The notes under the pieces: model-generated | Databases searched by the model: none | Seen by the model: the letters and a program-made list of their open reading frames with translations, nothing else | What the model was told of the DNA's origin: nothing | Shown here: in pieces, positions 7,368-21,874 of the stretch | Layout: each line of letters starts with the position of its first letter | How positions within the stretch are numbered: position 1 is the first letter of the stretch | Made by a program: the position numbers and the translations under genes | Source: Geobacteraceae bacterium GWC2_53_11 | Lineage (GTDB): Bacteria; Desulfobacterota; Desulfuromonadia; Geobacterales; Pseudopelobacteraceae | Length of the DNA stretch: 64,000 nt | NCBI GenBank assembly: GCA_001802645.1 | Contig: MGZJ01000036.1 | Span: 11,451-75,450 of the forward strand | Direction of reading: 5' to 3'

Positions 7368-10300
7368 TTACCACGAAGACCTGTTATTCCACATCTGGTT
7401 AGTCGGGTTGTATGCAGTTCCGCCGGCATTTGCTGCGTTATGGCAGTTGGAGCCATATGCAATAGTACCATTTACGTTTGTCTGCTGGAACCACCATGGG
7501 CCAGGGTTGAATGCAGTCGGCCACTGTGTTTTATGCAACCCGCCACCGGCCGGGAAGCGGCCAGTACCACCGGTAGTAACAGGCAGAGTTACGTTACCGG
7601 CAACTGCAGCACCGGCAGCAGTTGGTATTGTTCCAGTTGATGAAGCATTCTGCTTAAAGTGCTTCACATCCAAACAGTTGGTAACCAGGAGACGCGGCAG
7701 ACGTGAAGTATGCGGCGCGTGACACTTGGAACAGGTGTACGCATGGACTTTGTTGCCGACATTATTGCCGGTTGTTGCTGCCCACCCTTTGACCGACTGG
7801 TGGATACGTGCCGTTGTTTTCCAGTTGGTGCTTGACGGCGCCGTAGCATTTGTCAGGGCTGCTTTTGCATGACACTGTATGCAGAGGCCGGCAAAGTTTG
7901 TATCAGCGAACGTCTGCTGAGAAGAAGCAGCATTAGTGAATGGCGCAAATTTCTGGCTTCTCAAAGCGCTTCTTGCAGAAGCAGTAGTTGCACCACCGGA
8001 ACCGGTCGGGTTAGGCTGTACAATCAGGGTGTTCTGATCGATATGGTAACCCGGTATTGCGCCACCAGCGGTAAAGCCAGTATACCTACTACCGCCACCA
8101 CGCTGTACGGCAATATCAGCCTTGTCTTCTTTGTATGGCGATGTGACCCAGGTTCCTTTGAGCAGAGGTACTGCATTCGCCTGAGTAGGAACGAATGTTG
8201 TATTGGTTGTAACACCATGCGGATCGTGACATGGGGTACAAAGCCCCTGAAGACCTGCTGTTACAGTTGTCGTATGGGCCTGTTTTGTGATAGCCGATAC
8301 CGGAGTTCCGACAACACTTGTACCGTAGTGACCGCCCAATGGCATAGCCTTGGCGTTTGCAACGCCTGCTTTATATGGTGTGCGAGTTGCAACCGGCATG
8401 GTGAAGGCACCGAAATACGGAGTATCAAGGTATCCAGAAAGTGCTGCCGTTGCACCAAAAGTCTGGTAACCCCATGGAGCAGTACCGGAAGCAGTATAAC
8501 CAGCGGTCAAAGTTCCGCTTGCACTGTTATGGCAGTCGAAGCAGATAGTAGCTCCAGCGCTGAACGAAGCAGTATCTTGTCCGGTCTTTGTATGTGCGAC
8601 AGGTTTATATGCGTTTACATAACCACCTTTGCCAGCCGCTACATCTTTGATCAAGCCGCCTTTATTTCGACCGGTAGCACTTGAATACTGGCTGGTTATG
8701 CCAGCAACTGATGAACCATGCGAGTTATGGCAGTCAAAGCAAAGTACAGCAGTTGCTCCGGAAATATTGGTTATGGTTGTGTCTGTCTGGGTGGCACCGC
8801 CCATCTGGTTTCCAGAGGTGTTGTTGTGAGCGGAGAAAGCCTTGGTTACCAGGTTTTTAGCATTTGTGCCGCCGATTGGGTTTGTTCCACCAGAGAAGTT
8901 GAATTTACCCCATGGAGTCGTACCGGCCTGAACCCATTTGGTATTAATATCAATACCATCCCATGCATACTTGGAAGTTGGCGATGTGTCTCCAGCTGCC
9001 GTAAATGGAGCTGTTGTTTTATTTAATGTGTTGTGGCAGCTGATACACTGTGAATTGATCTTGGCAAGTTCAGTGCGCGACGTTGCTAAAGTACCGCCAC
9101 TCAGGTACTCAACAGCAGTTGTGCCGACCGTATATGTTGTAGGACGTATCGTTGCATTCCATACAACCAGATTAACTGGCTGTCCAGCTGCTTCCGTGTG
9201 GTAAGTAACATTTTTTGTTCCGTCAGCATTAGCTTCCCAGTGGCAGGCATAACAAGCTTTTACGTCAACCGGATCACCGGAAGCAGTTGTCTGTACGTGG
9301 TGTGAGTTGCCTGCAGTATTAAACTGCGGTGTCACTGCGACACGACCGTTCTTATCACCAGAACCGCCGGTATCGTGACATCCGGTACAAGATCCGCCTT
9401 CAATGGAGCCGTTGATATGTTTTGCTACGTCAGCAAAAATATTTGTATAGAGTGTTGGTGTTGCAGCAATAGTAGGATGACAGCCACCTGAAGCGCCGAG
9501 CGAACTACAGGCGCTGAGTCCGGCTATTGTTGAAATAGCAGAAGGGATTGATGCGTGTGCGCCTGAGCCGGGAGTCGGAGGAAGATCATGGCATTTTGAA
9601 CAGTCTGCTATGGAGTTGTTCAGCATTGTTCCAGTCCATGCCGGAGCCTTCGAATTGTGACACGAAGCTGTTGCACACGATGAGCCAGCATATCCAAGAG
9701 CAGCTTTCACCTCGGCTGGCAGTGCAGAATCATTATGCCCAAGATCAGCTACAGTTCCAGGAACAGTATGGCAATCGGCACAGGTTATTACAGTGGTTGA
9801 CATGGCATGTGTTCTGTTGAGATGACTGACATGAAGTGTTGAGCTTGTCGAGTCGGTGGTACCCGCAGTAGTTTTAAATATTGCTGTTGCTGAAGTGTCG
9901 CTATGGCAGGTGGCACAGCCACCAGCTCCGGTAGCCCCCCATGCAGGGCTTGCTGCACCATGGCACTGTGTCGAACTACAGGTATTCAAAGCCGATGGTG
10001 TATTTGTTGCTGCCCAGATTGCGCCTTTACCGTAGCTGCCACCTCTGATTGAAGCCGCCATTTCAATGTTGCCGTTGGAGTGATCAAAAGTCGAATTAGA
10101 AACATGACAAAGTGTACAATCGGTACCATGCTCGGCAACAGAGTGAGAGCCAAGGAAGGTTCCGGGAGGGTTGTTGCGAGCTGTTCCATCGCTTAAGGAG
10201 GGGTAGCTCGCATGACACTGAGAGCAACCGCTAATAGTTGCAGGCATCTGTGTGTTAGTGAATGCTCTAATAACCATGGCTGAAGAGGAAATACGACCGG

Positions 10301-11069
10301 CAGCAGATGGTGTGTGTGAAGCCGTGCTTGAATCAGCGGTCGTAGTAGTAAAACAATACCGGTTTGTTGCTCCTGGCGGGTTTGTAGTTACTGCAGTTGC
10401 AGTTGCAACAGAAGTCCAATTGGTGGCAGGAGCAATTGTCAAAGGTGCTGTCAAGCCGCTATTGACAATCATCGCTACACCAAACCCAATATCTCCGGAG
10501 AATATTGAAAGACGTGTAGTCAAAGGCATTGTAGAGGCATTAGTTACGCCACTATTGTAACTGCCACCAGTTGGAGCAGTTTGGGATACGCCATCATAAA
10601 CCGCATAATGAATACTGTTTGCAGTCATAGTTCCTGCCGAAACAGTAAATGTCAACGGACGAGAGGTTCCGTTCATCAATGTTGTATTATCAGTCATATA
10701 AAACATGTAGGTATGTTCCAATGCTGATGTTGCAGCTGTACTTGTATTTGCAACAGCGGTCAGAGCGGTGCCACCATATGTACATGTAACTGTCGGAGCA
10801 ACGGCAGCAGTAGTTGCTACAGTTACACCTGCAACTAACATCCGTTGGCCGGAAGCGCTGGCCGCAATCGCAAAACTTGCCGACGCAGGGACACTTGTCG
10901 CAGATACACTAACTGGCGCAATAAGTGATGAAATTGCCGCTTGTGCAGGTACAGGTTTGTACCACCCTTGGTACATAAAGACCGTAGTTGCCAGCGTGAG
11001 GAGGAGAATCAAGCTGGTTTTCGCCCACCAGCTCATTCCATTTAATTTTTTCTTAATTACTTTTCCCAT
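7368..11069 (-). CDS. Secreted multiheme c-type cytochrome with N-terminal beta-sandwich domain
   Basis: A 1233-residue protein. A signal sequence or anchor (TSLILLLTLATTVFMYQGW) is followed by a Thr/Ala-rich region of about 230 residues with CTYGGTALTAV and RPLTFTVSA, resembling an extracellular beta-sandwich and lacking heme motifs. From about residue 280 there are about 13 CxxCH motifs (for example CSQCH, CTLCH, CFDCH twice, CSKCH) and two CxxxxCH motifs (CSSTQCH, CATASCH), the latter in the pattern of the Geobacter CxxxxCH/CxxCH domain family. One CSSLGASGGCH segment may be a further site. Such cytochromes work in the periplasm, outer membrane or extracellular space in electron transfer. 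It lies 20 bp after a larger cytochrome gene and is followed by a 19-residue peptide gene. Confidence 0.9.
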   Translation of the reverse strand: MGKVIKKKLNGMSWWAKTSLILLLTLATTVFMYQGWYKPVPAQAAISSLIAPVSVSATSVPASASFAIAASASGQRMLVAGVTVATTAAVAPTVTCTYGGTALTAVANTSTAATSALEHTYMFYMTDNTTLMNGTSRPLTFTVSAGTMTANSIHYAVYDGVSQTAPTGGSYNSGVTNASTMPLTTRLSIFSGDIGFGVAMIVNSGLTAPLTIAPATNWTSVATATAVTTNPPGATNRYCFTTTTADSSTASHTPSAAGRISSSAMVIRAFTNTQMPATISGCSQCHASYPSLSDGTARNNPPGTFLGSHSVAEHGTDCTLCHVSNSTFDHSNGNIEMAASIRGGSYGKGAIWAATNTPSALNTCSSTQCHGAASPAWGATGAGGCATCHSDTSATAIFKTTAGTTDSTSSTLHVSHLNRTHAMSTTVITCADCHTVPGTVADLGHNDSALPAEVKAALGYAGSSCATASCHNSKAPAWTGTMLNNSIADCSKCHDLPPTPGSGAHASIPSAISTIAGLSACSSLGASGGCHPTIAATPTLYTNIFADVAKHINGSIEGGSCTGCHDTGGSGDKNGRVAVTPQFNTAGNSHHVQTTASGDPVDVKACYACHWEANADGTKNVTYHTEAAGQPVNLVVWNATIRPTTYTVGTTAVEYLSGGTLATSRTELAKINSQCISCHNTLNKTTAPFTAAGDTSPTSKYAWDGIDINTKWVQAGTTPWGKFNFSGGTNPIGGTNAKNLVTKAFSAHNNTSGNQMGGATQTDTTITNISGATAVLCFDCHNSHGSSVAGITSQYSSATGRNKGGLIKDVAAGKGGYVNAYKPVAHTKTGQDTASFSAGATICFDCHNSASGTLTAGYTASGTAPWGYQTFGATAALSGYLDTPYFGAFTMPVATRTPYKAGVANAKAMPLGGHYGTSVVGTPVSAITKQAHTTTVTAGLQGLCTPCHDPHGVTTNTTFVPTQANAVPLLKGTWVTSPYKEDKADIAVQRGGGSRYTGFTAGGAIPGYHIDQNTLIVQPNPTGSGGATTASARSALRSQKFAPFTNAASSQQTFADTNFAGLCIQCHAKAALTNATAPSSTNWKTTARIHQSVKGWAATTGNNVGNKVHAYTCSKCHAPHTSRLPRLLVTNCLDVKHFKQNASSTGTIPTAAGAAVAGNVTLPVTTGGTGRFPAGGGLHKTQWPTAFNPGPWWFQQTNVNGTIAYGSNCHNAANAGGTAYNPTNQMWNNRSSW

Positions 11070-11088: not shown

Positions 11089-14000
11089 TTAGTACGTAGA
11101 CCAGAGTGGTGTAGTGAAGTAGTGGCAACTGATGTTAGAGCAGGTTTTTTCCTTATTTAATGTCGCAGATGGAGTACCCGGTGTTCCTTTGTAGGCTGGT
11201 GCACCGCCAAACGAGAACGCACTGATCAATTCAACATTTACCGTCCCGGTGTCATGATTACCAGGAGTGTTGCCGTGGCAGACTCCGCAAACATTTGTCC
11301 AGGTAGTTGCAGCTGATGCATAACCATCAGTTAAAGGATTAAGGGTAATAGTCGGGAAGCGCTTTGTTGTGAGCCAGGTTATATGTGCCTCATGTGCACC
11401 TTTGCCTTCAGCATTGATACTTGGCGCACCTGCCCATGACCCAGCCTGATAGCCATGGCAACTGTTACATGCGCCACTGGCTTGCAAAATTCCATCGATG
11501 TGTTTCGAACCATTACCCTCATGACCATGGCAACCGTTACAATTTTGTGTAGCAAAGTTCATAGCTGAATGGTCTTTAGCTGCCACAACCGGGAGCGCTG
11601 CATGGCACTTACCGCAGTTAGTAACATCCTTGGCATACGGAGTCAAGTATGATGTGCCGGTGAACCGCCACTCCGGCGTCGTGTCCGTACCGGCCATGAC
11701 GCCTCCACCACCATGACAGTAAACAGCGGAACATGTTCCGCCTGCATACGTTGGAGTCAGAGTACCTCGTGTTGCAGGTCCGGTGGTTGCATTGCCGCCC
11801 GATGTACCGATGTTTTTGGCAAGATCACTAAATGGCATTGCCGTCAGACCATCAGCATGGGTGCCGCTTGTCGGTAATGTACCATGGCAATCGGAGCAGA
11901 GGGTCTTGCGGGTTGTATACTGATTTATGGCGCGGACGTGAGCATCATGTGCTCCGTACGGTGCGGTATCTGATACGTTGTTTGTATACGTACCGCTTCC
12001 AGCAACCTGAGCATAACCAGGAGCTGCCTGCCAGGCATTTGCCGTACTGTAGTTAGTCAAGGTCGGCTTACCATGGCACTTGGTACATGTCACACCTGCG
12101 ACTACAGTACCCCAGTTAGGTGAGCTTGATCCGTGGCAGGCTGTTGTAGAACAGGAACCGGAATAAGTACCGACAACATGTTTTGCTACATTTGCAGGAT
12201 ATCCATTGGTTACGTCGATGTTACCATCGCCGTGGGCTGTTCCTGAATTCGTATTCAATACTGCACCATTATGACATTGATTACATGCTGCACCTGCCAG
12301 GGCCATATGAGCCGAGTGGGCACCCGTTGTCGGTGAGGAAGCGTGGCACGATGCACAGGTTGCCGTAGCGCTCCAGATTGGAGTAGCAACCGGAGTTGTT
12401 GAGGTTGAGTGACATACGGTAGAGCACGTTCCGCTGTATGTACCGACAGTGTGTTTGGCAATATTAGCCGGGTAGTTGGCAACAGATATGTCAATATTGC
12501 CATCACCGTGAGCTGAACCGCCGTTGGAATCTTTGACTGCGCCGGTGTGGCAGTCTGCACAAAGTATGGCCGTTATGGCAGTGTGTTTTGCATGTGCGCC
12601 CGTTGCAGGTGAAGAAGCATGGCACGATGCACAGGTTGCCGTAGCGCTCCAGATCGGAGTAGCAACCGGGGTTGTTGAGGTTGAGTGACATACGGTAGAG
12701 CACGTTCCGCTGTATGTACCGACAGTGTGTTTGGAAATATTAGCCGGGTAGTTGGCAACAGATATGTCAATATTGCCATCACCGTGAGCTGAACCGCCGT
12801 TGGAATCCTTGACTGCGCCGGTGTGGCAATCAGCACAAAGAATAGCCGTTACGGCAGTGTGTTTTGTATGTGCGCCCGTTACCGGTGAGGAAGCATGGCA
12901 CGATGCACAGGTTGCAGTGTTTCCCCAGACTGGCGTTGAAACAGCTGCTGTTGAGGTGGAATGACATGTTGTTGAACAAGTACCGCTATAGAGACCAGCA
13001 GTATGCTTGGTTACCGGTGAGGCAGTGTAAGAATTGGCAACCTCAACCGTATTATTGGTGTGGCTTGCACCACCATTGGTACCGGCGACTGCTCCTGTAT
13101 GACATTGATTACATGCTGCTGAAGCTAAAGCCATATGCTTGTTATGGCTTCCTGTCGCAGGAGCCGTACCAGTTCCGGTGAACGCGCCACCAGCAGTATG
13201 GCAAGCGCCACATCCTGCTGCTGAGGTTCCCCAAGCGGGAGCATTAAACGACGCACTATATGGGTCTGCATGACATTTACCGCAACTTACGGTTGCAGAA
13301 GGTGTCAACAAATCAAGAGATCCATTGATATGCTTAGCATCAGTGGTGCTAGTGTAATCATGACAGGTTGCACAGCTGGCATCACCGGTAGGAATCTGAG
13401 TAAAGTGAGTAGTATGCGAACCGGTTGCAAGAGCACCGTTAACAGCTGTCTTATGGCAATTACCACAGACTCCACCAACACCGCCCCACACTGGTGCAAC
13501 TACTCTTGTGCCTGCTCCATCACTGTGACAATAAACGGTATCGCAAGTTGTTCCGGTTGACAACGCAGGTGCTACTTGCGAAAACTGAATATCTTTCTGG
13601 GTATTTACATGCTTGCCACCAGCAACATTGATTGTAGCATCTGTTGTTAATGTGGCAGCATGACAAGTTTTACAGCCATAACCACGTGTAGAAACATGAG
13701 CAGTGTGTGAGCCTGTACCTGGAGTTGCTGAATGACAAGATCCGCAATTCAGAGTATTTAGACCTCCAGCCCATGTAGCACTGCCAGTTGCACTGGTTGA
13801 AGTACCATCACTGTGACAATAAACCGCTGAACAAGTTCCGCCACTGTAGGTAGCACCAGAGCCAGCTAAAACACCACCAGATCCAACAGCAACTTTATCG
13901 ATAAAAACACTCGCATATGACTTAGTCGGCGATTCGTTATGAGTTGCTCCGGCCCCTACGGAACCATTGTGGCACTGATTACAGTTAAAAGAATAATTAC

Positions 14001-15294
14001 TTCCGCCTCCGACATGAGTTACATGAGGAGAAGTGTCTTCGTTGCCTGTGTAACCTGACTCTTTATTGGCATTGCTGGTTACAGGATAACCGTGGCAAGT
14101 GTCACATGCGCCGGCTCCAGGACTAAATGAACCAGTAACTTCATTGTGGTTGTGGCAACCCGAACAATTGGTTCTGGTAAGAACCCCACCTGAAAAATGT
14201 GTTGCAACCGGAACAGCGTGGCAACTCTGACAAACACCGCCACCACCTTCGATATAGTATTTTTTAGTATTTACATCATTGTAGATAATACGCTTACTTA
14301 TACGGCCTGCTGCTGAATAGGAAAGGTAGCGACGCACAAGGTAGACGTTGGGAACATTTGAAGTATCAGTGCCAGTAGCAGATGGATCATACTCAACATG
14401 ACCGGAGTGACAGTCATTACATTGTACATTCTGGCTGGATCTATTGTGTGCAAATTTGTTTGTATGGCAGTTTGTACAAATATTTATATCATTTGCTGCT
14501 TTGCCGCGTGCATCAACGCGCAGAAGGTAACCTTTGGAAGCCGACAGGTTGGAAAAAGCATGGCCGGTTGAGTAGTTATCAAGAGTTGCAGTGCGTGAAT
14601 CGGCAGCGTGTACTTTATGACATGAAGAGCAAACAACCTTTCCCTTCACAAGCTTTAGCTGGCTTATAGCACTACCAGAATCAGGTGTGGCACGGAACGA
14701 CGTTGGGTTTGCTTTATAAGCAGTTGAATAGGAAACGTTTACCGGGTGAGTACCAAACGTGTGATCAGATTTATCACGTGTACGATGGCAGTTCGTGCAG
14801 AGTTGGTCAGAATCATTGGCCGCACGAAGATATGGGGCATAGTTGGATTGTGCTCCGGAGGTACCATGAATATTGTGGCATCGGGCGCAAAACAGAGAGC
14901 CTGAAAAATAAGTATTTTTATTCAGTCCACTTCCAGCCGGGTCGGTAGGTGCCAGTGCGCCAGCCTTTGGCACGACATCAGAGCCAAACCATTTATGGGA
15001 TGACTGAACAGGCGTTCCCCTCACCATTGTTGAAGTGCCGGCAATATCGGCAAAATCTTCCGGCTTGAATACTTTCAATGTCTGGTTTGTTCCGGACAAG
15101 TGACAGGTCAAGCAGACGTTAGAGCTATAATTTGCTTCCGTATTACCATATGACTTGGTGGCTTCATGGCACGATTGACACGTGACGGAATATCCGCCAG
15201 ATGTAGGGTCATGGGCTCCGGGCAGAGCTAATGCCAGGCAGGGCACAAGCAGCAGAAACGCTATAACCAATAAGTTTAATTTACATTTGTTCAT
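11089..15294 (-). CDS. Giant multiheme cytochrome, CxxxxCH/CxxCH domain family (about 30-38 hemes)
   Basis: A 1401-residue protein with a clear signal peptide (LLVIAFLLLVPCLALA). I count 30 CxxCH motifs, five CxxxxCH motifs (such as CSAVYCH, CDTVYCH, CSNISCH) and three unusual CxxxCH motifs (CSTTCH, CSTVCH twice). The alternating long and short spacing is that of the Geobacter sulfurreducens CxxxxCH...CxxCH domain family. Residues about 790-990 contain 92-residue near-identical repeats. It has no membrane anchor after the signal peptide, so it is likely periplasmic or exported and acts as an electron conduit or capacitor. It lies 36 bp after the tetraheme gene and 20 bp before the next cytochrome, in the sigma54-driven operon. 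Its redox partner is not evident. Confidence 0.93.
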   Translation of the reverse strand: MNKCKLNLLVIAFLLLVPCLALALPGAHDPTSGGYSVTCQSCHEATKSYGNTEANYSSNVCLTCHLSGTNQTLKVFKPEDFADIAGTSTMVRGTPVQSSHKWFGSDVVPKAGALAPTDPAGSGLNKNTYFSGSLFCARCHNIHGTSGAQSNYAPYLRAANDSDQLCTNCHRTRDKSDHTFGTHPVNVSYSTAYKANPTSFRATPDSGSAISQLKLVKGKVVCSSCHKVHAADSRTATLDNYSTGHAFSNLSASKGYLLRVDARGKAANDINICTNCHTNKFAHNRSSQNVQCNDCHSGHVEYDPSATGTDTSNVPNVYLVRRYLSYSAAGRISKRIIYNDVNTKKYYIEGGGGVCQSCHAVPVATHFSGGVLTRTNCSGCHNHNEVTGSFSPGAGACDTCHGYPVTSNANKESGYTGNEDTSPHVTHVGGGSNYSFNCNQCHNGSVGAGATHNESPTKSYASVFIDKVAVGSGGVLAGSGATYSGGTCSAVYCHSDGTSTSATGSATWAGGLNTLNCGSCHSATPGTGSHTAHVSTRGYGCKTCHAATLTTDATINVAGGKHVNTQKDIQFSQVAPALSTGTTCDTVYCHSDGAGTRVVAPVWGGVGGVCGNCHKTAVNGALATGSHTTHFTQIPTGDASCATCHDYTSTTDAKHINGSLDLLTPSATVSCGKCHADPYSASFNAPAWGTSAAGCGACHTAGGAFTGTGTAPATGSHNKHMALASAACNQCHTGAVAGTNGGASHTNNTVEVANSYTASPVTKHTAGLYSGTCSTTCHSTSTAAVSTPVWGNTATCASCHASSPVTGAHTKHTAVTAILCADCHTGAVKDSNGGSAHGDGNIDISVANYPANISKHTVGTYSGTCSTVCHSTSTTPVATPIWSATATCASCHASSPATGAHAKHTAITAILCADCHTGAVKDSNGGSAHGDGNIDISVANYPANIAKHTVGTYSGTCSTVCHSTSTTPVATPIWSATATCASCHASSPTTGAHSAHMALAGAACNQCHNGAVLNTNSGTAHGDGNIDVTNGYPANVAKHVVGTYSGSCSTTACHGSSSPNWGTVVAGVTCTKCHGKPTLTNYSTANAWQAAPGYAQVAGSGTYTNNVSDTAPYGAHDAHVRAINQYTTRKTLCSDCHGTLPTSGTHADGLTAMPFSDLAKNIGTSGGNATTGPATRGTLTPTYAGGTCSAVYCHGGGGVMAGTDTTPEWRFTGTSYLTPYAKDVTNCGKCHAALPVVAAKDHSAMNFATQNCNGCHGHEGNGSKHIDGILQASGACNSCHGYQAGSWAGAPSINAEGKGAHEAHITWLTTKRFPTITLNPLTDGYASAATTWTNVCGVCHGNTPGNHDTGTVNVELISAFSFGGAPAYKGTPGTPSATLNKEKTCSNISCHYFTTPLWSTY
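12340..12980 (-). repeat. 276-bp tandem repeat inside the giant cytochrome gene
   Basis: Two almost identical units start near 12362 and 12638, exactly 276 bp (92 codons) apart, and a third, diverged unit continues to about 12980. Each unit encodes a CxxxCH, a CxxCH and a second CxxCH with the intervening AHGDGNIDI linker. The CxxxCH codons fall at 12409-12426, 12685-12702 and 12961-12978, in register. The period keeps the frame, so heme-bearing modules can be gained or lost by unequal recombination. Confidence 0.9.
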
Positions 15295-15330: not shown

Positions 15331-16137
15331 TTATTTATCGTGACAGGAAAGGCAAAGCTTACTTTCAGAGTTACTCATGACCAAAAACGGTTTTAACGTT
15401 GTATCTGTATTGTAATCGACGTGAGGATCATGGCACGTAGCACATTCCACCCTTTGGACAGCTGCTCCACCAAAGAATCGTATTTTACCTAAACTACGTG
15501 TGTCAATATCAGCAAGAGTGCGCAAGCCTGTCGCACGTTCGCCGTACACCTCCGTGTAGCTGAAACCTACCGGATGATCGTCTGTAAGATCAACCGTAGT
15601 GCCGACCCCCGGAGCCCCGCCACCAAGACTGGGCGAAGGAGGATTGGGAAGGAAGAATGTAGGATCAGGATTAGTCATGAACAGCTCACCTGTTCCAAAC
15701 GCATAGCTGGACCCTGCAGGGTAACCGGCCGGAGCCGCAGTGCCTTTGCCACCGTTATGGAGGACGTTCATTGCCGATTTTCCATCATGACAACCAAGAC
15801 AGAGTAGCGATGAAGAATCCGCTGAGAAAGCAGATTGTGTCCGTATTGCGTTGGTAGTTGACACCGACGAGTAAAACTTGTAGGTCAGGACGGTATTTTT
15901 ACTGACCTTATTCCAGAGAAATTTTGGCTGACCTGCATTATGCGGAGTATGGCAATACACGCAAATCTGCGGCTGAGCATTGGTGTCATCATGAAGCTGG
16001 GTACTGCCCCAATCGGGAGGAGCATTTTGTGTAAAATTGTGCTTCGTGTTTTCAATGCCAGCTACCGCCAGCGAAGCAACCATCATACCCGCTGCAACAA
16101 TCGCCAATATCAATGTATTTCGAGAAAGTTTTTTCAT
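15331..16137 (-). CDS. Tetraheme cytochrome, doubled-CxxCH type
   Basis: A 268-residue protein with an N-terminal signal peptide (LILAIVAAGMMVASLAVAG). Four CxxCH motifs occur: CVYCHTPHN, CLGCHDGK, CATCHDPH and CLSCHDK, the last at the extreme C-terminus. The CxxCHxPH and CxxCHDxxH patterns are those of the doubled CxxCH motif family, which carries bis-His hemes in the periplasm or outside the cell. The second gene of the sigma54-driven operon, it lies 41 bp after the NHL/Ig protein and 36 bp before the giant cytochrome. It may be the small electron shuttle feeding the large cytochromes; this is inferred from context. Confidence 0.9.
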   Translation of the reverse strand: MKKLSRNTLILAIVAAGMMVASLAVAGIENTKHNFTQNAPPDWGSTQLHDDTNAQPQICVYCHTPHNAGQPKFLWNKVSKNTVLTYKFYSSVSTTNAIRTQSAFSADSSSLLCLGCHDGKSAMNVLHNGGKGTAAPAGYPAGSSYAFGTGELFMTNPDPTFFLPNPPSPSLGGGAPGVGTTVDLTDDHPVGFSYTEVYGERATGLRTLADIDTRSLGKIRFFGGAAVQRVECATCHDPHVDYNTDTTLKPFLVMSNSESKLCLSCHDK

Positions 16138-16178: not shown

Positions 16179-18902
16179 TTACCAGCTTTTCAGCCCAAGA
16201 GCTTTACGAAGAATGAGAATGGCGTCGACAATTTCAATCTTGCCGTTAGGATTCGGTTTACCATTAACCAGAGGACCGATGTCATAGCTGGCAAGCTCTT
16301 GTGCAGTCGGTGTCAACTGATTTACTACGATACGAATTGCACGGAGAGCATCCCCTTTAACCGTAGGTATGCCATCAGGGTTAAGCGTTCCAGACGGATA
16401 ACTATAGGAAAGTGAGGCTGAAGTACTGTTACCAGCAGCATCGGTTGCAACAGACATAAGGCTCTCAGGACTGTAGGACACTCCTGCAAGATCAGCCGTC
16501 CATAAACCATTTGCTATATTCACAGTACCAACTTGCGTTGCCCCGTCCTTAATAACTACCGAAGAACCGGCTTCTACGGTACCACTCAACTTTGACGGCA
16601 TCGCTCCGTTAACCTGGTTCAGCGTAAACACTGGCGGGGTAATGTCATAAATAACATTACGGACAACAGCTGAAGTATTACCAGCAGCATCTTTTGCTTT
16701 AACAGTAACAGGATATGTTCCTTCGGCTGCAAAATCCACATTAAAAGAGTACGTACCCGCATTAACTGGCACGGCAAAAGTTGAACCGTTCAAAGTATAT
16801 TCCAAAGAAAGCGTTGTTGAGTCTGCAACGGTACCGGAGAAAAGAACGTTGGGAACATTTGTTGCCATATCCTGAGCAGGTGACACAATCGAGAGATTCG
16901 GGTTAGAAGCATCAAGCGTGATCGAACGCTTTACCGAAGAGCTATTGCCGTAAAGGTCAGTTGCAACAATTTCAATGGTATTAGAACCCGTAAGAAGATT
17001 TACTGAAGCACTCCAACTGTTATCCTGCAGGGTGGCTGCAACTCCTGCAACTGTAACAGACGATACTTTGTCAACTGATCCACTGACTTTCACCACTGAA
17101 GAGGATGTAAATGAATTGTCAACCGGCTCTAAGACGGCTATGTTTGGCCTTGCAGCATCAAAATACAGCGTTCTGCTGTCTGCTGTCGTATTACCAGCGG
17201 CATCGACAGCAACAACCGTTATAGTATTGGAACCATTTACAAGCGAAACCGGCACACTGAATGCGTTACCGGCAAGCGCAACTGGCGCGCCGTTCACCGT
17301 AACCACAACTGAGCCAGGATCAGCAATCGTCCCAGATATGTTCTGGACAGAGGTACTGGTATAACTGCCATTTTGAAGCGCCGACACGGAAAGCACCGGC
17401 GCTACTGTATCAAGAGTAACTGCAAAAGGAGTTACCACGGTAGCACTTTGAGTTTTTTGAGCGGAAACATTTATTGTATTCCCTCCTTCAGCAAGAAGAA
17501 GATTATAGCTCCATGCCGTACCCGAAACCACAGCGTTTCCGCTTACTGAAGTTGCCTGATTAGTCACAACCACGACTGCACCGGCATCTACGGTTCCGGT
17601 AAGCGTTACAGACGGACTTTTGGTTACCGAAGCTACCGGAGAAATTGTCAATGCAGGAGCAGGGAGTAGATAGTTAACATTAACAACTTGGGCAGCAGCG
17701 CTGTTGCCAGCTACGTCTTTTGCCGTTACGGTGACGCTATTAGCACCAGCAGTAAGCCCGGCAACCTGAACACTCCATGCAGAACCGGCATAAACAACTG
17801 CTCCGACTACTGAAGACCCGCTAGCAGACACCTGAACAGTAGCTCCCGCCTCAACGGTACCACTGATAGTCAGCGAATCTACCGTCACTTCAGCAGGCAC
17901 CTGATTCAATGTAAAAACCGGAGGAGTCGCGTCTACATATTCCGGGCTTTTACCACCATCTATTCCATAGATCGTAACATTACCAAATCCGTTTACGACC
18001 AGCAACCGGCTATTTACTGAATCAAACACTGCGTCAGAAGGAACCATCAGCTGTCCGTTCGCAGTACCGGATGAGCCAATATAGTTTTTAGTTGTACCGG
18101 AAACCGTCAAAGCCGCTGACGTAGCTGGGTCAACGACCTGAATGTTACTCTGAAAGGCATCAACTACATACATTCTCAAAAGAGTTGCCTGATCCTGACT
18201 ATATTCAAAAGCGACCGCAACCGGAGCAGCAAACTGCATCACACCAACCGCAGCACCCAGAACTGTTGATACCGGATTTCCCACACTCTTAACAAGCGTA
18301 CCGTCAAGCTTGTTAAAGAACCGCACCTTATTAGCAAAAGTATCTGCCACAACGACTTGGCCAGAAACTTTTTCAAAAGTGACACCTGACGGCGAGAGAA
18401 GCCCTGAAGCCAGCACCTGAACAAATGCGCCGGAAGCGTTATACACCAGAACCTGGCCGGTTGCACCGTCGGCTATATATATATAACCGGTCACATTATC
18501 AACGGCGATTCCAGTCGGCGACTGCATTGGCGCACCGGCTATACGACCAACCTCCTGCCCCCCTGCAACATCGTAACGAGCAACAAAAGAAGCCTGGCTC
18601 ACCAGCAAAGTGCCATCCTGAGCAAGAGCCATACCCGCAGGAGCCGCGGCAGTCTTAATAACAGAAACCTGAGAGCCATAAGCATCAAGCTTCACCACAC
18701 CGCCGATTCGCTGATCAGCTATGTACGCATTACCTGCCGCATCCATAACCATCTTAACCGGCGAACGAAGCCCTTTGGTCAAAGGACTTAACACTGTTAC
18801 CGTCGGTGAAGTGGCCGCTACAGAAACCACTGGCAGTGAAATAACCGCTGTCGCCAGCGCTATAACACCCATCACTACAACTTTTTTCGCTCGTACTAGC
18901 AT
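16179..18902 (-). CDS. Secreted NHL-propeller, Ig-like repeat and dockerin-like protein
   Basis: A 907-residue exported protein. After the signal peptide (VVVMGVIALATAVISLPVVSVAA), residues about 35-320 form NHL-type propeller blades (GNAYIADQRIGGVVKLD, GYIYIADGATGQVLVY). Residues about 330-820 hold some six Ig-like repeats with signatures such as SGTVEAGATVQV and LVNGSNTITVVAVDAAGNTT. The last 70 residues resemble a dockerin module, with a calcium-loop-like NPNGKIEIVDAILILRKALGL and an earlier half-repeat GDALRAIRIVV. No cohesin gene is seen here. It is the first gene after the sigma54 promoter and precedes three cytochrome genes, so it may scaffold or anchor them at the surface. That role is inferred; the domain calls are good. 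Confidence 0.85.
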   Translation of the reverse strand: MLVRAKKVVVMGVIALATAVISLPVVSVAATSPTVTVLSPLTKGLRSPVKMVMDAAGNAYIADQRIGGVVKLDAYGSQVSVIKTAAAPAGMALAQDGTLLVSQASFVARYDVAGGQEVGRIAGAPMQSPTGIAVDNVTGYIYIADGATGQVLVYNASGAFVQVLASGLLSPSGVTFEKVSGQVVVADTFANKVRFFNKLDGTLVKSVGNPVSTVLGAAVGVMQFAAPVAVAFEYSQDQATLLRMYVVDAFQSNIQVVDPATSAALTVSGTTKNYIGSSGTANGQLMVPSDAVFDSVNSRLLVVNGFGNVTIYGIDGGKSPEYVDATPPVFTLNQVPAEVTVDSLTISGTVEAGATVQVSASGSSVVGAVVYAGSAWSVQVAGLTAGANSVTVTAKDVAGNSAAAQVVNVNYLLPAPALTISPVASVTKSPSVTLTGTVDAGAVVVVTNQATSVSGNAVVSGTAWSYNLLLAEGGNTINVSAQKTQSATVVTPFAVTLDTVAPVLSVSALQNGSYTSTSVQNISGTIADPGSVVVTVNGAPVALAGNAFSVPVSLVNGSNTITVVAVDAAGNTTADSRTLYFDAARPNIAVLEPVDNSFTSSSVVKVSGSVDKVSSVTVAGVAATLQDNSWSASVNLLTGSNTIEIVATDLYGNSSSVKRSITLDASNPNLSIVSPAQDMATNVPNVLFSGTVADSTTLSLEYTLNGSTFAVPVNAGTYSFNVDFAAEGTYPVTVKAKDAAGNTSAVVRNVIYDITPPVFTLNQVNGAMPSKLSGTVEAGSSVVIKDGATQVGTVNIANGLWTADLAGVSYSPESLMSVATDAAGNSTSASLSYSYPSGTLNPDGIPTVKGDALRAIRIVVNQLTPTAQELASYDIGPLVNGKPNPNGKIEIVDAILILRKALGLKSW

Positions 18903-19010: not shown

Positions 19011-20384
19011 TTACTTTAAATAACCAAATTTCTTCATGCGGTATCGGAACGCGTCAATACCCAGATTCAACTTTTTTGCCGCCTTTGACTGATTCCATTC
19101 TGTTATTTCAAGAGCCTGCCTAATGAGTTCCTTCTCAACTTCTTCAATATCTATACCCTCAGGCGGCAAGCGAAATGACGATACGGGTGCACCGTATTGC
19201 GGCGAAGTCTTGGCAACAATTTCAAGCGGCAAGTGTTCAAGCAGCAGGGTATCATCATTACCAAGAATAATTGCCCGCTCAATTACATTTTTCAGTTCAC
19301 GGACATTACCCGGCCAGCTGTAATCCGTCATCATCCGCTCTGCCATTCCTGCAATGCCCTGGACTTTTTTGTTAAAGTCCTTGTTGTACAAGTTGATAAA
19401 ATGAGTCGCCAACGGAATAATATCTTCTTTGCGCTCTCGCAGCGAAGGCAGGAAAATAGGGATTACCTGTAACCGGTAGTACAAATCGTTGCGGAATGTT
19501 TTCTCCTCTATCGATTTCTGTAAATCTTTGTTCGTCGCTGAAATAATCCTGACATCTACCGTAAAGACGCGACTACCGCCAATTCGCCGAAATGAGCGAT
19601 CCTCGAGGAACCGTAGCAGCTTGGCCTGCATTCCCATTTCCATATCGCCAATTTCATCAAGAAAGACCGTTCCGCCGTCAGCTAATTCAAACAGACCTTT
19701 TTTAGTTGCTTTTGCATCGGTAAAAGCACCCTTTTCGTGCCCGAACAGCTCGCTTTCCAGAAGTGTCGCGGGAACAGCTGCACAGTTAATTGCAATGAAC
19801 GGCTTCTCAGCGCGATTTGAGCTGTAATGAATCCATTTAGCGACCAACTCCTTACCCGTACCGGATTCACCCTGCACAAGAACGGTAGACGCCTCGCTTC
19901 GGGCCACTTTATCCAGCACTTCCATCAAATACTTAATCTGGCGGCTTTCTCCAATAATATGAGGAGGACCGTTTTTCTTTGTTTCAGTACGGAGTCTGAC
20001 TACTTCCTGTTTAAGATCGGATGTTTCAAGAGCTTTTCTGACAACAATCGACAGTTCATCGAGGTTAAACGGTTTACTGATATAGTCGTAAGCACCAAGC
20101 CGCATGGCACTTACGGCATTTTCAAGCCCGCTATTGGCAGTCACCATGATGACGATAATATCTTCATCATGATCCTTAATCTTTTCAAGCACATCTATAC
20201 CACTGATTCCCGGCAACTGTATGTCCAGCAGGACTAAATCCGGCTGTTCTTCCCGGACAAGGCGAAGCGCATCCTCACCGCTCCCGGCCGTGACAACCTC
20301 GTAACCCTGCTTTTTCAGATTTTGTTCAAGCGACCAACGGATAAGGTGTTCGTCATCAACAACCAATAGTTTGTTTTTTTTCAT
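19011..20384 (-). CDS. NtrC-family sigma54-dependent response regulator
   Basis: A 457-residue protein with three domains. The receiver (1-120) carries the acidic pair in VVDDE, the phospho-acceptor Asp54 in LLDIQLPG and Lys104 in SKPF. The AAA+ domain has Walker A GESGTGKE (about 172-179) and GAFTDA at 219-224, a variant of the GAFTGA loop that contacts sigma54. The C-terminus is a Fis-type helix-turn-helix (NQSKAAKKLNLGIDAFRYRM). The ATG overlaps the kinase stop by 4 bp, giving a coupled two-component pair. A consensus sigma54 promoter lies just after its stop codon, so it very probably activates the NHL/cytochrome operon. Confidence 0.93.
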   Translation of the reverse strand: MKKNKLLVVDDEHLIRWSLEQNLKKQGYEVVTAGSGEDALRLVREEQPDLVLLDIQLPGISGIDVLEKIKDHDEDIIVIMVTANSGLENAVSAMRLGAYDYISKPFNLDELSIVVRKALETSDLKQEVVRLRTETKKNGPPHIIGESRQIKYLMEVLDKVARSEASTVLVQGESGTGKELVAKWIHYSSNRAEKPFIAINCAAVPATLLESELFGHEKGAFTDAKATKKGLFELADGGTVFLDEIGDMEMGMQAKLLRFLEDRSFRRIGGSRVFTVDVRIISATNKDLQKSIEEKTFRNDLYYRLQVIPIFLPSLRERKEDIIPLATHFINLYNKDFNKKVQGIAGMAERMMTDYSWPGNVRELKNVIERAIILGNDDTLLLEHLPLEIVAKTSPQYGAPVSSFRLPPEGIDIEEVEKELIRQALEITEWNQSKAAKKLNLGIDAFRYRMKKFGYLK

Positions 20385-21874
20385 ACGGTTTCCTCACTTA
20401 CATCGATAGATTCGGGATAGTATGACGGCAACTCAATGGTAAATATTGTTCCATTCCTATCATCGCTGGTTACTCGAATATCACCTTTATGAAGTTTTAC
20501 GAGTTTATTACAGATCGGCAAGCCTAAACCGGTTCCCTGGGCTTTGGTTGTGTAAAACGGAGTGAAGATTTTTTCCAGTATCTGAGGAGGAATCCCTGAA
20601 CCGGTATCGGATATATCAACCCGCACATACTCAATATCGCCTCGCATCACAACAGATGACCTTACACCTAAAACACCACCAGCCGACATTGCTTGGTACG
20701 CATTGAGTACAATATTCAAAAAAACCTGCTGCATCTGCTTGTCATCAGCATACACAGCGGGAAGATCCGGCTGGAATTGAATTTTTCTTTCTATATTGGC
20801 ACCACCGCGATGTTGCGAAGCAAATTTGAGCGTCGTTGCAAGAATCGAATTTATGTCAACGCATGTCAACTCCGGAAGAGAAGGCTTTCCAAAGAAAAGC
20901 AGGTCGTTAACTGTTTTATCAAGTCTCTTGACTTGCTCAATGACCTCACCAAGAATTGCGCCACGAGGATCGTCCGAAACCATGTCGTCTTTAATAATCG
21001 TTACTGCAGCAGATATTCCGGCCAGAGGGTTTTTAATCTCGTGTGCAATGCCGGCGGCCATTTCCCCGATCGAAGCCAATCGATCAGCCCGTTCTAATTG
21101 CTGGAAATGGAGTTGTTCCAGCTCTTTCTGCGCAATTTCAAGTCGATCAACCATTGAGTTGAAACTCTCGATCAAACGACCTATCTCATCCTTACCTTTA
21201 TATGCTATTCGTACCGCGAAGTCGCCCTGCTCAACCTTGAGCATCGTATCAACCATGTTATCAAGAGGGTTTTTTACGAACCTTACCAGCAGAAAAGAGA
21301 TGGTAATCGCAAGAAACACCGTGATTGCTATTGATGAAATGACAAAGATCCTGGAAGCATCAAGCATCTGCATTTTTGTTCGATTGAGAGAATAGTTTAT
21401 ATTGAGAATGCCGATAACCCGAGCTTTGCTGCCATGACAGGCATGACAGGACGCCTCGTTGTATATCGGCTTAACCATTGACAAGACTTCTCCATGAGGA
21501 GCTATGGTAAAAATACTATAATTTTTAGGGCTTTGATATATTTTGTAATCATTTTCATTAACGGATCTACCGACTTCACTCGGCACAGATGAACGCAGAA
21601 TTACCCCATGCGGATGAAATATGCGGACCCCCACCAACTGATTATGCTGACCGACCATAGACAAGATAGCACCGACGTCTTGCACATTCCCAAGATGCAT
21701 CGTATTATAAATACTGCTCTCAACGGTATGCAGCAACAGTTCGGTACTCTCACGAGCTGTTTCAATAAGCATTTCCTGCTGATGACGCACGTTGAAGGTA
21801 GTATAGATAAATATTCCCGCTACGAGCAGAGAGATGGTGGTTGCAATTACACGTGTCGTGAGGCTACGAAACAT
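20381..21874 (-). CDS. Membrane histidine kinase with periplasmic c-type heme motif
   Basis: A 497-residue sensor. TM1 (about 10-30) and TM2 (about 175-198) flank a periplasmic domain that carries one CxxCH heme site, EASCHACHG (Cys143, Cys146, His147). Then come HAMP (200-250), HisKA with the phospho-acceptor His278 in AHEIKNPLAG, and an HATPase domain with DTGSGIPP and GTGLGLPI. A covalent periplasmic heme in a kinase suggests sensing of redox state or of a gaseous ligand. Its stop overlaps the response regulator start (ATGA), so the two form a cognate pair that very likely controls the downstream cytochrome operon. Confidence 0.92.
   Translation of the reverse strand: MFRSLTTRVIATTISLLVAGIFIYTTFNVRHQQEMLIETARESTELLLHTVESSIYNTMHLGNVQDVGAILSMVGQHNQLVGVRIFHPHGVILRSSVPSEVGRSVNENDYKIYQSPKNYSIFTIAPHGEVLSMVKPIYNEASCHACHGSKARVIGILNINYSLNRTKMQMLDASRIFVISSIAITVFLAITISFLLVRFVKNPLDNMVDTMLKVEQGDFAVRIAYKGKDEIGRLIESFNSMVDRLEIAQKELEQLHFQQLERADRLASIGEMAAGIAHEIKNPLAGISAAVTIIKDDMVSDDPRGAILGEVIEQVKRLDKTVNDLLFFGKPSLPELTCVDINSILATTLKFASQHRGGANIERKIQFQPDLPAVYADDKQMQQVFLNIVLNAYQAMSAGGVLGVRSSVVMRGDIEYVRVDISDTGSGIPPQILEKIFTPFYTTKAQGTGLGLPICNKLVKLHKGDIRVTSDDRNGTIFTIELPSYYPESIDVSEETV

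Follow-up and report, generated by a model that had tools for sequence, protein, structure and literature searches.

Three CX3CH motifs in a multiheme c-type cytochrome are very probably working heme c sites, namely shortened versions of the CxxxxCH site of a c7-like triheme domain (TIGR01904/PF09698). Gaps of three and of four residues between the cysteines are exchangeable at this one site, which belongs to a known type of domain (CxxxxCH/CxxCH). The gene lies in the 64,000-nucleotide stretch of DNA that was analyzed here (the window), and its relevant features, in window positions, are the following.

11089..15294, minus strand: gene for the 1401-aa multiheme c-type cytochrome (open reading frame and motif scan; TIGR01904, PF09698 and PF14522 matches)
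12869..13144, minus strand: triheme repeat copy 1 (numbered along the protein), the most diverged, with CSTTCH (61% identity to the reference copy)
12593..12868, minus strand: triheme repeat copy 2, with CSTVCH (94% identity to the reference copy)
12317..12592, minus strand: triheme repeat copy 3, with CSTVCH (reference copy, 100%)
12961..12978, minus strand: CX3CH site 1, CSTTCH, motif 21 of 38 (motif scan and ortholog alignment)
12685..12702, minus strand: CX3CH site 2, CSTVCH, motif 24 of 38 (motif scan and ortholog alignment)
12409..12426, minus strand: CX3CH site 3, CSTVCH, motif 27 of 38 (motif scan and ortholog alignment)
12133..12153, minus strand: CX4CH site CSTTACH of the next unit, the usual version of this site (motif scan and codon comparison)
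11713..11733, minus strand: CX4CH site CSAVYCH, motif 33, where the ortholog in genome G025 has CX3CH, CTTYCH (ortholog alignment)
13270..13284, minus strand: CX2CH motif CGKCH, replacing the long motif in the same Trp context (Trp-context scan)

A cytochrome with 38 motifs of three spacings

A scan of all CH dipeptides revealed 38 CXnCH motifs in the 1401-aa protein, 30 CX2CH, 3 CX3CH, and 5 CX4CH. Nearly all of its cysteines (76 of 78) reside in these motifs, and the remaining two are found within the first 20 residues, in a signal-like stretch at the N-terminus. The two cysteines and the histidine ligand of a c-type motif are present in CSTTCH and in both CSTVCH sites. The protein scores far above the cut-offs of its family profiles, with 110.2 bits for TIGR01904 (cut-off 27, nine stretches), 51.2 bits for PF09698 (cut-off 21.7), and 151.6 bits for the cytochrome c7 profile PF14522 (cut-off 24.8, 13 stretches). 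Two of the three CX3CH units (C36:24033-24227 and C36:23757-23951) pass the family cut-off alone. A literal CxxxxCH followed by CxxCH is present at 12133-12153, 11713-11733, 13813-13833, and 13525-13545, but not in the three CxxxCH units, which is the difference from the TIGR01904/PF09698 (GSu_C4xC__C2xCH) description. As other units of the protein fit this description, the protein is a member of the family and the three units are a spacing variant. The departure from the CxxxxCH of the family, which an earlier reading of the sequence had pointed out, is thus real.

The gene is flanked by multiheme genes on both sides (7368-11069 and 15331-16137). The former (minus strand) contains a CX8CH motif at 9477-9509 and a CH at 7440-7445 without any cysteine in the preceding 25 residues. 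Another gene of the cytochrome cluster (16179-18902, minus strand) encodes a surface-type protein of 907 aa, whose domains are of the NHL, Glucodextran_B, and Big types. The gene at 20381-21874 (minus strand) encodes a histidine kinase that combines HAMP, HisKA, and HATPase domains with a sensor domain of the Mcp40H-20 type, and its neighbors are the cytochrome genes and the gene of an NtrC-type regulator (19011-20384). The sensor part of the kinase contains CHACH, a CXXCH motif, and it is possible that the kinase is a c-heme redox sensor.

The three CX3CH units are tandem repeats of unequal age

The CX3CH units are triheme direct repeats of 92 aa each that follow one another in tandem. As had been noticed from the sequence, the CSTTCH and the two CSTVCH motifs are exactly 276 bp apart, start to start at both steps, and the repeats keep the reading frame. 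The accompanying view that the repeats are recent duplicates holds for copies 2 and 3 (dS 0.19, dN 0.02, simple Nei-Gojobori), but not for copy 1, which has a dS of 1.60-1.65 and a dN of 0.36-0.38 to both others by the same method, whereby dS values above 1 are near saturation. The codons of the motifs reflect this distance: TGT TCA ACA ACA TGT CAT for CSTTCH and TGC TCT ACC GTA TGT CAC for CSTVCH differ at five of six places, and four of these differences are silent. Because copy 1 is only 61% identical and encodes CX3CH mostly with other codons, the spacing is old and has been kept. The comparison of the two closest copies shows 12 synonymous and 4 non-synonymous differences, and dN/dS between the copies is about 0.1-0.24. 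The coding sequence of the repeats, including the spacing, is under purifying selection.

CX3CH is a regular spacing in multiheme proteins

The main sample consisted of 104 open reading frames (at least 120 aa, at least five CxxCH) from the window and from 40 loci that were fetched around homologs. In this sample gaps of 1, 2, 3, 4, 5, 6, 7, 8, and 9 residues between the CH and the previous cysteine were found 8, 1863, 61, 483, 6, 5, 1, 5, and 1 times, respectively, and the cysteine was further away in 19 cases. A gap of three occurs 61 times, compared to 8, 6, 5, 1, and 5 times for gaps of 1, 5, 6, 7, and 8, and therefore it is not due to chance. The 61 CX3CH motifs are spread over 50 of the 104 reading frames and 30 of the 41 sources. 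The proposal that the three-residue spacing is not a typical heme c site is not supported, given this broad occurrence as well as the heme found on the CXXXCH motif of MmcA (PMC11024163, discussed below).

A second sample of 38 reading frames from 20 loci and 15 genomes gave 42 gaps of three and 163 gaps of four, compared to 4, 5, 9, 3, and 4 gaps of 1, 5, 6, 7, and 8, and gap 3 was present in 11 of the 15 genomes. One of these genomes (G188) belongs to the family of the window; when it is left out, 35 CX3CH (10 of 14 genomes) and 130 CX4CH (14 of 14 genomes) remain. In the context of the domain, i.e., a long motif, a Trp, and CxxCH, gaps of 2, 3, 4, 5, and 6 occur 32, 45, 335, 1, and 1 times in the sample from the order of the window, and gaps of 2, 3, 4, 7, 8, and 10 occur 35, 20, 85, 2, 2, and 2 times in the second sample.

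Reading frames rich in CX3CH exist in other families of the phylum, e.g., with eight (L109) and nine (L114) such motifs. Two loci (L063 and L082) encode long arrays of triheme units of about 97 to 101 aa, every one with CX4CH. The arrays seem to be uniform in the spacing that they carry.

CX3CH and CX4CH share one sequence context

In the 104 reading frames, T is the most common residue ahead of both motifs (35 of 61 CX3CH, 247 of 483 CX4CH), S, T, or A follow the first cysteine in both, and Y or S precede the CH in 37 of 61 CX3CH and 355 of 483 CX4CH. A CxxCH follows within 60 residues after 59 of the 61 CX3CH motifs, and the downstream CxxCH is preceded by a Trp for 52 of 61 CX3CH and 422 of 483 CX4CH. 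In an alignment of 87 two-unit segments, the cysteines and histidines of the motifs, the distal-type histidines, and one Trp show no or almost no variation, whichever of the two spacings is present.

The histidines outside of the motifs agree with this pattern. All strict triheme units, 28 of 28 with CX3CH and 308 of 308 with CX4CH, contain at least three non-motif histidines, and their number does not differ (p 0.50); in the strict-unit and pair-alignment counts, two CH dipeptides at the start of reading frames are included as gap 3, which raises 61 to 63 and 103 to 105. Two histidines are situated between both CxxCH in 28 of 28 units with gap 3 and 307 of 308 units with gap 4, and a further histidine downstream of both CxxCH is equally frequent (28 of 28 and 307 of 308). 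Each strict CX3CH unit (28/28) therefore offers at least three free histidines for three hemes, and these probably ligate the hemes. With a looser definition of the unit, two histidines between the CxxCH motifs were found in 37 of 51 units with gap 3 versus 278 of 317 units with gap 4 in the order of the window, and in 19 of 20 versus 74 of 77 units in the second sample. Units preceded by CX2CH have the two histidines in 7 of 33 cases (second sample 7 of 26); as their homology to the long-motif units is not clear, their value as a control is limited.

The spacing is exchanged between orthologs

The closest full-length relative among 57 other genomes is encoded by genome G025 and is 52% identical over the whole length. 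Both proteins contain 38 motifs in the same order, and only four spacings are different, those of motifs 21, 24, and 27 (three residues in the window protein, four in the ortholog) and that of motif 33 (four versus three). Because the two proteins swap the spacings within one and the same order of 38 motifs, CX3CH and CX4CH are exchangeable at one site. The sequence-only reading had proposed that a heme module is being gained. Such a recent gain is not supported in comparison with this ortholog, relative to which the spacing alone has changed; a gain is possible only relative to a more distant ortholog (G018), which has 27 motifs and lacks the array.

Homologs from different genomes were compared in 244 pairs with a minimum of 40% identity and 400 aligned residues. 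In these pairs, which are not independent of one another, CX3CH is aligned to CX4CH 131 times, to CX3CH 61 times, to CX2CH 39 times, and once to a gap of 8, while CX4CH is aligned to a gap of 5 twice. A FastTree tree of 482 units (59 with gap 3, 423 with gap 4), from which the motif letters had been removed, requires 37 changes of spacing, whereas 200 shuffles of the labels required 56.6 changes on average and never fewer than 52. The spacing is thus inherited, but labile. The three window units cluster with CX3CH units of two other genomes (G003 and G031, support 95), and a second clade unites five CX3CH units from three families (f1, f3, and f4) that are 51-87% identical (support 99), whereby single branches carry little weight in a FastTree tree of such short repeats. 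On the same tree, the three units of the window protein and the three units of the G025 ortholog are nearest to units of their own protein, a pattern expected from concerted evolution or from separate expansion.

A contig scan for relatives yielded six loci, three of them close. The genome of the window itself encodes a paralog of 621 aa (G000:C66:19795-21621; about 7796-9622 of locus L058) that shares 71% identity with the window protein over residues 811-1401 of the latter. It is close to the window protein only from the CSTTACH unit on, and its upstream CX4CH units are of another kind. It looks as if the C-terminal part had been exchanged between the loci.

Comparison with known CX3CH cytochromes and structures

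The closest experimental parallel is MmcA of Methanosarcina acetivorans, for which seven motif peptides (five CXXCH, one CXXXCH, and one CXXXXCH) all carried a heme of +615.17 Da (PMC11024163). Like the window protein, MmcA combines CXXXCH with CXXXXCH and CXXCH motifs. In contrast to the window protein, it is an archaeal heptaheme protein of another family, has a single CXXXCH, and depends on an archaeal machinery for cytochrome c maturation. ImcH is a NapC/NirT-like membrane protein and, in contrast to the window protein, not a triheme repeat protein. PMC6295460 describes this inner-membrane cytochrome with one CX3CH in Geobacter and relatives, a motif that it shares with the window protein. 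For the outer-membrane Pcc cytochromes, atypical CX3-15CH motifs are reported in PMC4245776, where GM18_3461 and GM18_3467 of Geobacter are listed with five CX3-4CH each and heme binding is stated via a 2004 review. These proteins belong to porin complexes and have far fewer motifs than the window protein, and an exchange of spacing is not a topic of the passages covered from that paper. A census reports that CXXCH and CXXXCH are both present in 9.6% of the Geobacter proteins with heme motifs (PMC11434368), and CX3CH is counted as a heme motif in PMC10734462 and PMC5566968. The CX3CH motif, the domain, and the occurrence of both in Geobacter are already in print. In the literature covered, which was mainly open and partly available as excerpts, we found no description of a CX3CH/CX4CH exchange at one TIGR01904 site or of its spread through tandem units.

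An AlphaFold2 model of a 233-aa fragment, based on 87 rows, reached middling confidence (pLDDT 74.9, pTM 0.54), and neither Foldseek nor VIA-align retrieved a solved structure matching this model. The sequence of the window protein had no match in the PDB at 1e-5, and an 87-row profile gave 41 weak PDB matches (best E 1.5e-5). Multiheme proteins account for almost all of these matches, which are uninformative for the CX3CH site.

Alternative explanations

It could be argued that the CX3CH sites have decayed, i.e., that the loss of one residue abolished heme attachment and left the cysteines unused or joined in a disulfide. In the closest ortholog all three sites are CX4CH, which makes a one-residue loss the likely direction in this lineage, and under the looser definition a slightly smaller share of the CX3CH units has two histidines. 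However, both cysteines and the histidine were kept in a copy at a dS of about 1.6 with largely different codons, one clade of CX3CH units has been kept across three families, and the set of free histidines is intact in all strict CX3CH units. In addition, decay should also yield gaps of 5 to 8, yet these are nearly absent. We thus regard decay as unlikely. Still somewhat less probable is that heme is bound via a single thioether, an aberrant linkage, or non-covalently, with a lyase that is unable to join both cysteines. System I of E. coli is reported to form an aberrant persulfide link at altered spacing (PMC3601427), and hence not every maturation system need accept CX3CH. However, the genome encodes two pairs of ResB and CcsA-like proteins, i.e., System II-type lyases (C34 and C63), both cysteines are kept at the CX3CH sites, and the mass shift of the MmcA peptides is that of ordinary heme. 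A dedicated heme lyase gene was not found among the neighboring genes examined, and the ResB/CcsA pairs are encoded on other contigs.

A sequencing or assembly artefact, either a deleted codon or a falsely built repeat, has a negligible probability, even though the draft assembly comprises 91 contigs and near-identical repeats are hard to assemble. The three in-frame copies differ from one another, even the closest two by the substitutions given above, related CX3CH units exist in G003 and G031, and the G025 ortholog, which is also contained in a metagenome-assembled genome record (JAQUHA010000009.1, Desulfuromonadaceae), has the same number of units. According to the sequence-only reading, a sequencing deletion would be indicated if relatives had CxxxxCH at these sites. 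This is the case, but the deletion is rejected, as the shorter spacing is found in three copies, one of them largely in other codons, and in units of two other genomes.

Proposed mechanism

For the preferred reading, that the CX3CH sites are working heme c sites, the following mechanism can be proposed. The domain unit consists of one long site (cysteine gap of three or four residues) and two CxxCH motifs, and the three free histidines per unit would serve as distal ligands. The long site accepts gaps of three or four, longer ones almost never in the order of the window, and heme would be attached covalently at the CX3CH sites as well. The site would have moved between four and three several times, and duplication of units or gene conversion could then have carried the respective form of each unit through an array; the direction of the change and the spread by duplication or conversion are inferred. 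Maturation would most likely be performed by the System II (CcsBA-type) heme lyases. Judging from its family and the number of hemes, the protein is most likely one long heme chain with a role in extracellular electron transfer.

Implications

Heme counts that are based on CXXCH only overlook the CX3CH sites. The window gene and its ortholog represent a natural experiment, one chain of 38 motifs in which four sites have CX3CH in one protein and CX4CH in the other, and both proteins are natural substrates for studying the spacing tolerance of System II lyases and the effect of the spacing on heme potential. We tentatively suggest, as a possibility rather than as our expectation, that the spacing is a switchable trait: gaps of three and four would be exchanged recurrently at one heme site and copied through arrays by concerted evolution, and a bacterium could give every third heme of a chain a new geometry, and perhaps a new potential, while the number of hemes is unchanged. 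If this is true, the CcsBA-type lyases of the phylum would routinely accept at least three spacings.
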